From assembly GCA_025360005.1 (NCBI GenBank), contig JANYDA010000009.1, positions 124,001-188,000 on the forward strand: a DNA stretch of 64,000 nucleotides. The letters run 5' to 3'. This document shows positions 10,777-14,917 of this stretch, in pieces. The stretch is from Fibrobacteria bacterium (GTDB lineage Bacteria; Fibrobacterota; Fibrobacteria; UBA11236). The notes beneath the pieces are model-generated. The model was not told the origin of the DNA. It made no database searches and saw only the letters and a program-made list of their open reading frames with translations. Made by a program: the position numbers and the translations under genes. Numbering within the stretch: the first letter of the stretch is position 1; every line of letters begins with the position of its first letter.

Positions 10777-11060
10777 GATAGTCGATACTTAAAATAATTA
10801 AAACCAGGATCCCGGTTCTCCATCGTCGCAAGATGCGACGTCTGTTTCAAGCTATGGTTGCAGAACCGGCGGGCGCCGGGAGGTTTCCCGCGAAACCTCC
10901 CGTGCCGGCGCCGTCCCGGCCCTATTTCCCGGGACTTTCGGGCCGTTTCGGCCGATGAGATCCTTTTGGACCATGGATGGGGAATGGCATGCCCGTTGCT
11001 TTTCCATTCCCCGCATAGAGAGCCATCCAGGCTCGCAACCCAAAAAAGGAGATGATAGCC
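10777..11060. promoter_or_regulatory. Divergent intergenic region with two perfect hairpins upstream of hsp20
   Basis: A 284-base gap between divergent genes. It holds a 7-bp hairpin with a 3-base loop (CGTCGCA at 10824-10830 pairing with TGCGACG at 10834-10840). It also holds a 10-bp perfect hairpin with a 4-base loop (GGGAGGTTTC at 10878-10887 pairing with GAAACCTCCC at 10892-10901). No CIRCE operator (TTAGCACTC/GAGTGCTAA) and no clear sigma32 promoter is visible. A ribosome site AAGGAG (11046-11051) precedes the hsp20 start. The hairpins may be an operator, a terminator for antisense reading, or an RNA leader. Confidence 0.4.
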
Positions 11061-11480
11061 ATGAACAGTTCCCTCGCATACAGCCCCGCCCGTTGGTTGG
11101 ATCAATTCTTCACCGATTTCGACAAAGCCGACGCGACCAAGAACGACTTCGCGCCCGCCGTTGACATCCTGGAAGAGAAGGAAGACTATGTGCTGCGGGC
11201 CGAATTGCCGGGCGTGGCCAAGGAGAACATCAAGATCGAAGTGAAGGAGAACCGCCTGACACTGAGCGGTAAGAAGGAAAGCTCCTGGGCGGACAAAGGC
11301 GCCGATGCGCAAGCCGAATACCGGTATTCCGAATCCCGCTACGGCGGCTTCACGCGCGTCTTCGAGCTTCCGCGCAATGTTTCCGGAGAATCCATCCGCG
11401 CGGAGTACAATAATGGAGTGCTGTTCTTGAGGATCCCCAAGGCCAAGGAAGCCTTGTCCCGGGTCATCGAGATCAAGTAA
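11061..11480 (+). CDS. Small heat-shock protein, Hsp20/alpha-crystallin family
   Basis: An ATP-independent holdase chaperone of the cytoplasm. The alpha-crystallin domain spans about residues 33-136, with ELPGVAKENIKIEV, NRLTLSGKKE and the closing NNGVLFLRIPKAKE, whose LRI resembles the hydrophobic G-x-L core; it ends VIEIK. Length is 139 residues from the ATG at 11061. That ATG is preferred over the one at 11052 because AAGGAG directly abuts the earlier codon, leaving a normal 9-base spacing to the later one. It is monocistronic and converges with cysC. Confidence 0.95.
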   Translation: MNSSLAYSPARWLDQFFTDFDKADATKNDFAPAVDILEEKEDYVLRAELPGVAKENIKIEVKENRLTLSGKKESSWADKGADAQAEYRYSESRYGGFTRVFELPRNVSGESIRAEYNNGVLFLRIPKAKEALSRVIEIK

Positions 11481-11548: not shown

Positions 11549-12151
11549 TTAGAGATAACCTTTTTCCGCCAGCAGTTTCATAATGCGTTCGAGGGACTCT
11601 TCGATCTTTTCTTTGTCCGTGTGCAAAGTGATCTCCGGATGTTCCGGAGGCTCATACGGCGAAGAGATACCGGTGAACTGGGCGATCTCGCCCTTACGCG
11701 CCTTTACGTACAGGCCCTTGGGATCGCGCGTTTCGCAAATCGCCAGCGGCGTGTCGACGAAGACTTCGATGAAGTCCGTCCCGATCAGGTTGCGCGAAAT
11801 TTCCCGCTCCTCCCGGAAAGGGGAGATGAAGGAAACCAAGGTGAGCACGTTGGCATCCCACAGCAACCTGGCCACGTGGGCGACGCGGCGGTTGTTCTCT
11901 TTGCGGTCGCTTTCCGAGAAACCCAGATCGGAGCAAAGGCCCATGCGCACATTGTCGCCGTCCAACAGGTAGGAAAGCTTGCCGGCCTGGTTGATGCGTT
12001 GCTCCAGCGCGTTGGCAATCGTGGACTTGCCGCTTCCGGAAAGACCCGTGAACCAGATCACGGCGCTTTTCTGGCCCAGCACGCGAGCGCGCGCATCCCG
12101 ATTCACGGAGGTGTTGTGCCAAACCACGTTCGGGGATTTGATCGGATCCAT
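11549..12151 (-). CDS. cysC: Adenylylsulfate (APS) kinase
   Basis: Phosphorylates adenosine 5'-phosphosulfate to PAPS in sulfate activation. It is 200 residues long with P-loop GLSGSGKST at about 36-44, substrate loop [12 protein letters not shown], and [11 protein letters not shown] containing the conserved Ser. The reading frame continues upstream to 12502, but that part overlaps cysN and is not family-like. The ATG at 12151 lies 10 bases after the cysN stop and gives the normal N-terminus ([15 protein letters not shown]). It is last in a cysD-cysN-cysC operon. All catalytic motifs are intact, in contrast to the degenerate copy at the end of the adjacent CysN. Confidence 0.95.
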
Positions 12152-12161
12152 GGCTTTAAAT

Positions 12162-13994
12162 CTAAATACCGCCGATGGCGCCGGACGCCCGCAATTTCGC
12201 CAGCGCCTCCTCGACCAGCCCGGCTGTGGTTCCGGTGGCCTCTTCCGCATCGGCGGGAGCTTCCAATTGCAGCACCGCATGGGGTTCGACCAGGTTTTCC
12301 AGGGTCTTGATATCCTCTGAGTCCAGGCCTTTGGCGGCGGCCACAACCAATAGGCCGGCATCCAACAACAGCGAGGCGGCCTGGCCAAGCTGCGCGGCGG
12401 GGATTTCCGCTTCCCATCCGGATACGATCTTGGCGTCGCCGCTTTCCGAACTCTGATGCGAATCGGCTTCCTGCGCATCCTCCAACCCCAGGTAGAAAGC
12501 ATGCCTGCCCAGGCCGATGAGCCTGGCTTCCAGGGCTTTGGCTGCGACCTTGGGATCCCGTCCGGGGCCGCCGGAAAGGATCACCAAAGCGGGTTTCTGG
12601 CCCATAAGCTCGGCGCGCGCTTCCGCGGAGACGGCGGAGCGGGAAAGCAGGGAAGGCTTGGCCGAACCTATGGCCTGCGCATCTTCCGGCAAGGCTTCGC
12701 GTACGATGCCGCCGCCTGCGATTTCGTATTGATCCACTATCACGAAGCGTCCCGTGGCTTCCAAGCGCGCGATGGGATCGAAGGCCAGGGGCTTGGAAAG
12801 CTCGATGATGCAATCGGCCACGTCATGGCGTTCCACCGCGGACTTGGTCTGGCCGCCGGTTTCGGAAGCGTCGATGAGGTAGTTGATCTTCTCCAACCGG
12901 CACGGCACCTTGGCGGTGCCTAGTTTGAGATGGTAGGTTTTGCCCGGCTGGAAAGGCTTCTTGCCCATCCAGAACAGGTTGATGCGGAGCCGCCGGGAAA
13001 CTTCCGCCTGCACCTCCGCGGCTTTGACCATCAGTTCGCCGCGGCCTACGTAGATCTGCTCCGCCAAGGTGAAACCGATGGAGATGTCCGCGCCGATTTC
13101 CTCTCGCGCTACCGCATGGAAGGCCTCGATGGAAGCGATGCGGCTTTTCTTCCCGGAGGGCAGGAACACCACGGGATCGCCGGCTTGGATGGAACCGGAT
13201 TCCACGCGGCCGGATACGATGCGGCGATCGTCGCCCAAGGAGGTGAACTTGTAGATGTCCTGCACGGGCATGCGGAAGGGCTGGTTCGCCTTGGGCGGTT
13301 CCTTCTCGAAATTGTCCATGGCGGAAAGCAGGTTGGGGCCTTTGTACCAAGGCATTTTGTCTGAAGCATGGATCAGGCCTTCCCCGTTGAACGCGGAGAT
13401 GGGCAGGAAAAAGCGCGGAGTGGCGCCGATGCGCGCCAGGAAGGCGACGTATTCGTCGCGGATGTCTTCGAAGGCCTCGCGGGAATAGCCCACCAGATCC
13501 ATCTTGTTGACGGCCACGGCGATTTGCTTGATGCCGAGCATGGACAGCAGGTATCCATGCCGCTTGCTGTTCTCCCGGATGCCTTCCTTGGCGTCGATGA
13601 CCAGCACGGCCGCTTCCGCGCGGGCCGCGCCCGTCACCATGTTCTTCAGGAACTCGATATGGCCGGGGGCATCGATGATGATATAGTCGCGCTTGCCGGA
13701 TTTGAAGAATGTGCGCGCGGTGTCGATGGTGATGCCCTGGGCCTGTTCATCCTTGAGTGCGTCCAGCAGGAAGGCGTATTCAAAGGGACGCGAATTACGC
13801 TCGCAGAAGGCCCGCACGGATTCCAGTTTGCCGTCGGGCAGGGATCCCGTGTCGGCCAGCAGGCGGCCCACCACGGTGCTCTTGCCGTGATCGACATGGC
13901 CGACGATGACGATGTTCATGCGGATGCGGCCGTCCACCATGGAACCGGGAACGCCGGTGGGGGCGAAAGGCGTGGCGATGCGGGTGGGTTCCAT
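12162..13994 (-). CDS. cysN: Sulfate adenylyltransferase subunit 1 (CysN) with degenerate APS-kinase-like tail
   Basis: The GTPase subunit of ATP sulfurylase. G1 is GHVDHGKST (about residues 32-40), G3 is DAPGH and G4 is NKMD, followed by the EF-Tu-like beta-barrel domains to about residue 440. From about residue 468 the C-terminus ([14 protein letters not shown], then [19 protein letters not shown], then [13 protein letters not shown]) aligns in order with APS kinase. The P-loop GLSGSGKST has become GGPGRDPKV and DGDN has become GLED, so it should not bind ATP normally. The start is the second ATG at 13994, with AAGGA 8 bases upstream; the frame reaching back to 14369 lies inside cysD. Total length is 610 residues, against about 475 for stand-alone CysN. 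Confidence 0.93.
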
Positions 13995-14005
13995 GGTCAT
14001 GATCC

Positions 14006-14917
14006 TTACATGTATCCGTCGCGGCGGAGGGTTTCCAGGCCGCCGCCGTCTTCTTTGTCCTGGGCGCGGCCGGAGCGCTCCGCGATGTTCGCGAACTTTC
14101 CGGTCTTGAGTTCCGCCACTATCTCGGCGACGTTCTTGGAGGTTGAATCCACGGGCGTCGTGCAGGGGTAACATCCCAGGGACCGGTAGCGCTTGCCGGT
14201 CCCCTTGTCGAAATACAGATCGGTGATGGGGATGTTCTCGCGCTGGATGTATTCCCAGATGTTGAGCTCGGTCCAATCCAGGAGCGGATGGATGCGCAGA
14301 TGGGTGCCTGGGGCGAAATCGGTCTTGAACTGGTTCCAGAGTTCCGGGGGTTGATCGCCCACATCCCACTCGTTGTTCTTGTCGCGGGGGGAGAAGTAGC
14401 GTTCCTTGGAACGCGATCCTTCCTCATCGGCGCGGGCTCCCACGATCACGCCGGTATACGGATCCTTGTTCTTGTCGGTTTCGTACTTGCCGGTCTGCAG
14501 GTTGAGGCGATAGCGCGGCCACTCCCCGGAGAGGGTATTCTTCAACGCGTCCGTCTTCAGGTTCTTGCAGCATTGCAGGCGCGTGATGTTCCCGTCCGGA
14601 AAGGTCTCCTTGCGTTCCAACGCGCCCTTGTTCTGACCATAAACCATGGTCAGATGCCAATCCATCGCCAATTGATCGCGATAGCGGATCATCTCCGGAA
14701 TCTTGTAATTGGTGTCGATGTGGACCAGGGTGATGGGCACATGCCCGAAGAAAGCCTTGCGCGCCAGCCATAACAGGACGGTGCTGTCCTTGCCGATGGA
14801 CCAGAGCATGGCCAGGTTCTTGAAATTGGCGTATGCTTCACGGAGGATGTACACGCTTTGGTTTTCGAGCTGTTCCAGATGATCGTGTTCCATACTGTCT
14901 TTCGCAAAGAGGGACAT
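14006..14917 (-). CDS. cysD: Sulfate adenylyltransferase subunit 2
   Basis: The catalytic subunit of ATP sulfurylase, making APS from ATP and sulfate with CysN. The PP-loop signature [10 protein letters not shown] is near residues 40-49. Other family blocks are [12 protein letters not shown], the [14 protein letters not shown] loop, and a C-terminal [10 protein letters not shown] followed by the conserved [10 protein letters not shown]. Length is 303 residues. It is first gene of the cysD-cysN-cysC operon, with a candidate promoter just upstream. An alternative start is the Met at residue 9 (MEHDHLEQ). Confidence 0.96.

Follow-up and report, generated by a model that had tools for sequence, protein, structure and literature searches.

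Why should the GTPase subunit of an ATP sulfurylase carry an APS-kinase-like domain stripped of its catalytic residues, next to a gene for an intact APS kinase? The question is raised by a cysDNC locus in the window examined here, a stretch of 64,000 nucleotides from a Fibrobacteria bacterium (contig JANYDA010000009.1). All features of this locus lie on the minus strand. The ORF cysD (14006..14917), with a short CysD-type match to the TIGR00434 profile, encodes the catalytic subunit of ATP sulfurylase. It adjoins cysN, which was correctly placed at 12162..13994 in the preliminary description and comprises 610 codons plus a stop, starting with ATG (MEPTRIA...). cysC (11549..12151) starts 10 bases downstream of cysN. 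A small heat-shock (Hsp20-like) protein, identified by eye, is encoded convergently with cysC at 11052-11480 on the plus strand. The cysH of this genome lies apart from cysDNC (L203, G000:C47:44249-44881) and scores just under the cysH cut-off, with CC present and CSPVTC in place of CxxC.

The GTPase core of CysN (aa 26-432; 12699..13919) is recognized by Pfam as GTP_EFTU (2.9e-44) and GTP-eEF1A_C (5e-18). Its G1, G3 and G4 boxes are intact, and the G1 box, GHVDHGKS (aa 32-39), is invariant across the relatives. The protein passes the TIGR02034 (CysN) cut-off with 348.8 bits versus 336.1, and remains below that of the CysNC model PRK05506 (408.9 versus 715). Residue 432 is followed by a linker and then by about 155 residues of APS-kinase-like tail. 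The neighbouring CysC is intact, as initially described: it matches PF01583 at 8e-66 and TIGR00455 with 255.9 bits (cut-off 138.7), its Walker A motif GLSGSGKS can be read directly from the sequence (12023..12046), and it keeps the P-loop, the LDGDN motif and the lid, all of which are lost from the CysN tail.

Does the tail truly descend from an APS kinase? The preliminary description had aligned it with the downstream CysC; the pairings quoted there hold, and BLASTP of the two window proteins gives an E-value of 9e-7 over CysN residues 455-504. The isolated tail also matches the NCBIfam models PRK05506 (CysNC fusion; positions 444-560 of the model, with E 3.6e-6) and PRK03846 (APS kinase; E 2.7e-4). 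A Pfam scan of the window CysN returned no PF01583 (APS_kinase) row for the tail, and phmmer with the single tail found nothing in the PDB, so the evidence from this one sequence is modest. The decisive evidence comes from the family. An HMM of tails from which all Fibrobacterota had been left out recovers the window tail with a score of 71 bits and, at Z=1e7, an E-value of 5e-17. When a profile built from 56 tails is run against the PDB, APS kinases come up at E 1e-24. PF01583 is matched by 54 of the 56 relatives' tails at E<=1, PRK03846 and PRK05506 by all 56 each. AlphaFold models were made of the isolated tail from the window (pLDDT 83, pTM 0.77) and from one relative (pLDDT 88). Foldseek ranks APS kinases first for the window tail model (E 1.5e-7), and VIA-align superposes it on them with a Z of 17.6 (rmsd 3.7, 141 residues), against 11.0 for the best unrelated family; for the relative's tail the corresponding values are 19.6 and 14.3. 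The predicted fold is thus that of an APS kinase; an unrelated fold would have counted against the first reading. We conclude that the CysN tail (aa 453-610; 12165..12638), on the evidence of the Fibrobacterota-free HMM and the structural comparison, is homologous to APS kinase.

The next question is what this domain has lost. The M. tuberculosis CysC structures (PMC4373884) served as the source of residue roles, which were transferred through an alignment comprising 43 active domains, 100 non-Fibrobacterota tails and 8 from the window's family. The catalytic P-loop and the lid are missing from 100/100 of the tails outside Fibrobacterota, the lid, about 35 residues, being entirely deleted there as well as in the window tail. 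In the same 100 tails the Asp pair of LDGD is retained at frequencies of 0.09 (D478) and 0.01 (D480), R483 and F492 at 0.00, S457 and S524 at 0.01, and the Mg-binding Ser of the P-loop in 1%. Residues of the scaffold and helices are kept: R435 (0.99), A460 (0.93), L467 (0.99), Glu499 (88%), E506 (0.93) and G515 (1.00). With the catalytic and ligand residues gone and the scaffold residues in place, the tail has lost its catalytic and ligand-binding set and retained the scaffold. The window tail has no Walker A motif (GGPGRDPK, aa 475-482; 12549..12572; GLSGSGKS in CysC) and is likewise devoid of LDGD, of the phosphosulfate clamp and of the entire lid. LDGDN is replaced by LGLED (aa 502-506; 12477..12491), and the approximate site of the missing lid, a 26-letter stretch in CysC, maps to 12231..12242. 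These alignments bear out the earlier statement that the P-loop and DGDN are gone, and the window tail fails the motif set of APS kinases (GxxxxGK[ST], LDGD, lid lysine and stacking Phe). More positions have been lost in the window's family, among them the Arg-Arg pair of the tail helix, whose opening E-H-I-R-R motif is lost in the window's lineage. Judged by its residues, the CysN tail is an inactive pseudo-APS-kinase.

Several other tails and kinase domains depart from the common pattern. Six planctomycete tails (L101, L153, L154, L156, L158 and L159) show intermediate decay, with LDGxN or IDGxN still readable, a P-loop in which GK is followed by H, Q, A or R, and the lid gone. Two clostridial tails (L124 and L128) follow another pattern, in which the FLEI strand is kept and the P-loop region rewritten, possibly through an independent loss. 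Three planctomycete CysNC proteins of the GSVDDGKS clade (L170, L172 and L174) keep the P-loop but read LDGQN or LDGRN in place of LDGDN; here the catalytic Asp seems to have been lost a second time, independently. A P-loop flagged in L005 was a chance match elsewhere in the tail.

When did the domain lose its activity? The preliminary description had proposed a CysNC-type fusion whose kinase half decayed once a separate cysC took over, and this reading is attractive in that cysC is adjacent and intact in all searched genomes of the window's family. The distribution of the tail speaks for a much older event. A gene-level search yielded 80 loci, from Fibrobacterota, Clostridia, Omnitrophota, Planctomycetota, Chlorobi, Deltaproteobacteria, Neomarinimicrobiota, Gemmatimonadota, Spirochaetes, Thermotogae, Acidobacteriota, Lentisphaerae, Hydrogenedentota, Gastranaerophilales and an archaeal bin, and the dead tail is present in those members that were read. 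Many of the tail-bearing records are metagenome bins; several, among them Clostridium carboxidivorans, C. folliculivorans, Acetivibrio mesophilus, Ruminiclostridium papyrosolvens and Chlorobium ferrooxidans, are isolates. The wider set was assembled from 299 genomes sampled around a Clostridium and 199 around a planctomycete. The dead tail is the mark of a CysN clade that has GHVDHGKS as its G1 box and spans at least 13 phyla. In a tree of the GTPase core, CysN splits into a GHVDHGKS and a GSVDDGKS clade with a support of 100/100; active CysNC is found in both, and is basal in the GHVDHGKS clade, in which 51 of 52 dead rows fall into one later clade. In the tree of the kinase domain all dead rows lie on one side of a branch with a support of 99/94, a grouping that long branches, such as that of the window genus (2.87), can exaggerate. 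Both trees fit a single ancient loss from a CysNC fusion. The origin in a fusion with a decayed kinase half thus stands, and the proposed cause of the decay does not: the dead state, by its phylogenetic distribution, is not a local decay, predates the window lineage, and is common to phyla with no detected cysC, so that a local takeover by the adjacent gene is a most improbable explanation. An origin of the tail by duplication of the neighbouring cysC was rejected, as the tail groups with the dead tails and not with the CysC of its own genus.

Relatives with an intact P-loop would also have counted against the first reading, and the main pseudo-kinase clade has none. The sole active exception inside the dead-tail clade is the CysN of L123 (G259), which carries an active APS kinase; this was probably acquired by re-fusion, because it groups with standalone CysC proteins. 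In some other relatives the tail is absent from CysN or its place is taken by an unrelated domain or by an active kinase, so the tail is not indispensable to CysN. The unrelated C-terminal domain, of about 150 residues with the motifs FDEYYY, GETYSYP, VNGRGF and NKW, replaces the kinase tail on CysN proteins of both clades (L125-L127, L130, L131, L138-L140 and L168, and L015-L017, L026 and L030 of Fibrobacteraceae); a Pfam scan of two representatives gave no family. Other short C-terminal extensions occur on the GSVDDGKS-type CysN of L141, L143 and L144. One Fibrobacteraceae genome (G068; L011, L196 and L197) has a dead-tail cysN and two intact APS kinases on one contig; its tail has its nearest relatives in Lachnospiraceae, and lateral transfer or bin mixing is possible.

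If the tail is not a kinase, does it work together with one? Intact APS kinase was sought with TIGR00455 in 46 tail-bearing genomes, and was found in 34 of them. The search found none in the other 12, some of which are incomplete bins, and cysH is present in 10 of these. In a recheck of four isolates with the window CysC, the search hit the tail, a fragment right at the limit of detection, or nothing, and no CysC beyond the tail. A sequence of the form CC..CxxC is the signature of iron-sulfur APS reductases. Of 77 loci, 21 have a cysH with this signature beside the tail-bearing cysN and another 28 have cysC there, 49 in all, and no locus has the two together; the dead tail therefore accompanies both routes. 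aprB, used as a marker of the APS-reducing route, gave only one match over the cut-off and was uninformative. In Chlorobium ferrooxidans the dead tail is the only APS-kinase match in the genome. As this organism can nevertheless grow with no sulfur source other than sulfate (PMC5498476), it must evidently be able to activate sulfate.

These counts bear on three of the proposals for the tail. A takeover by cysC cannot be the general cause of the dead state, given the 12 genomes with no detected APS kinase. For the same reason the channelling of APS to CysC, which the preliminary description had offered as a possible role, does not hold as a general function. A broader version, in which the tail would be a docking platform for CysC, or in cysH operons for the APS reductase, and would pass APS on to this partner, can draw on the neighbourhoods just described and on the dimeric nature of APS kinases, which makes a pseudo-active heterodimer conceivable; CysC not being a general partner, we consider it unlikely. 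The third proposal is an allosteric one, in which the tail, on binding PAPS or APS, would regulate ATP sulfurylase, as in Penicillium. A similar dead domain acts in this way in filamentous fungi (PMC4220642, PMC13213808), and outside Fibrobacterota 57% of the tails still have Arg497 of the APS site, and 72% the P-loop lysine. Both residues are missing from the window tail, however, and the APS/PAPS pocket (Asp480, Arg483, Phe492 and the whole lid) is gone in nearly all tails. With the pocket lost, and with no PAPS source detected in those same 12 genomes, PAPS sensing does not hold as a general function, and a sensor role of this kind is quite unlikely.

Might the tail then have no function at all? 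Among six species of the window's genus, its dN/dS is 0.13-0.37 versus 0.06-0.13 for the core, values that are rough because synonymous sites are near saturation. In the sister genus, where the tail shortens, dN/dS is 0.35-0.55 where computable. The reading frames of the tail are open in all relatives read. These substitution patterns indicate that in the window's genus the tail diverges fast and yet is under purifying selection, and that it is less constrained in the sister genus. A relic on its way out would account for the fast divergence, the dN/dS above that of the core, the shortening in the sister genus and the complete absence of the tail in some relatives. Such a relic would hardly be expected to show selection of this kind, or a fold that, over many phyla and at so great an evolutionary distance, is still predicted well. 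Selection and spread thus disfavour a pure relic, which is decidedly improbable as a general account, although this may be the fate of the domain in the sister genus.

We therefore favour, as the probable explanation, a pseudo-kinase that stems from an ancient CysNC fusion and is kept as a structural or oligomerisation module; the preliminary description had also considered a domain kept for structure, and this is the best explanation remaining. The fusion would be one of the GHVDHGKS clade, one of the two great clades of CysN, and ATP binding, catalysis, APS clamping and the lid would have been lost once, early in that clade. Since then more than a dozen phyla have retained the tail, without catalysis, as a module in which the APS-kinase fold and its dimer-forming helix probably hold CysD-CysN units together or support CysN, in parallel to the kinase-like domain of yeast ATP sulfurylase serving its hexamer. 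In the window's own family the domain is diverging further, and in the sister genus it is shortening. Two helices are mainly responsible for dimer formation in APS kinases (PMC4373884). A 15-residue helix of the tail (aa 533-547; 12354..12398), the counterpart of an APS-kinase helix, is the best kept part of the tail in the window's lineage, and with its E..LL.DAG pattern, among the best kept parts of the tails, we infer it to be one of the two dimer helices, a conservation that is not specific to dimerisation because the helix also lies near the active site. There is a precedent for a scaffold role: an APS-kinase-like domain is essential to a stable hexamer in several ATP sulfurylases (PMC3779200). 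It is also tempting to speculate that the dead kinase now serves the GTP-driven CysDN sulfurylase as an allosteric or gating element, an independently evolved counterpart of the fungal regulatory domain, which might sense a ligand other than PAPS, or a partner, via a remodelled pocket with a conserved GIGNxLYGVDAD loop; we regard this as rather unlikely.

How does this CysN compare with the known sulfate-activation systems? From the CysNC/NodQ type (PRK05506; M. tuberculosis CysNC) it differs in its dead kinase, the missing lid and the GTPase of the GHVDHGKS clade. CysN of the E. coli type (TIGR02034) is likewise the GTPase subunit of CysDN, with no kinase domain and with a G1 box of the GSVDDGKS type. 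The fusions of Thiobacillus denitrificans and Entamoeba also contain a non-catalytic half (PMC13213808), and represent the mirror case, since there an APS kinase is joined to a dead half that is sulfurylase-like. A search of the literature, with subscription journals mostly outside it, found no account of a degenerate APS-kinase domain on CysN. The annotation of pathways is affected: Chlorobium ferrooxidans has been credited with PAPS synthesis from 'CysN/C' (PMC5498476), whose kinase domain lacks the catalytic residues in a genome in which no intact APS kinase was found.

There is also a likeness with fungi, where Sat-type ATP sulfurylases are known to carry dead kinase-like domains. The Penicillium enzyme, like the window CysN, joins a sulfurylase to an inactive APS-kinase fold; it is, however, an unrelated Sat-type sulfurylase whose domain binds PAPS, whereas the CysN tail has neither the pocket residues nor the lid and is fused to a CysN GTPase. 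The yeast ATP sulfurylase (1g8f) carries an inactive APS-kinase-like domain as well, with which the window tail superposes at a VIA-align Z of 9.8, and is again of the Sat type, with no CysD or GTPase, unlike CysDN. According to the title of Lalor (2003), cited in PMC4220642, the yeast domain is needed for oligomer formation and not for activity. The bacterial and fungal proteins are not homologous as fusions but convergent, and the dead tail of CysDN constitutes a second, convergent case of a dead APS kinase on an ATP sulfurylase. Across closely similar GTPases, the CysN proteins provide a natural comparison set in which the kinase is an active fusion, dead, absent, replaced by a foreign domain, or active again after re-fusion.
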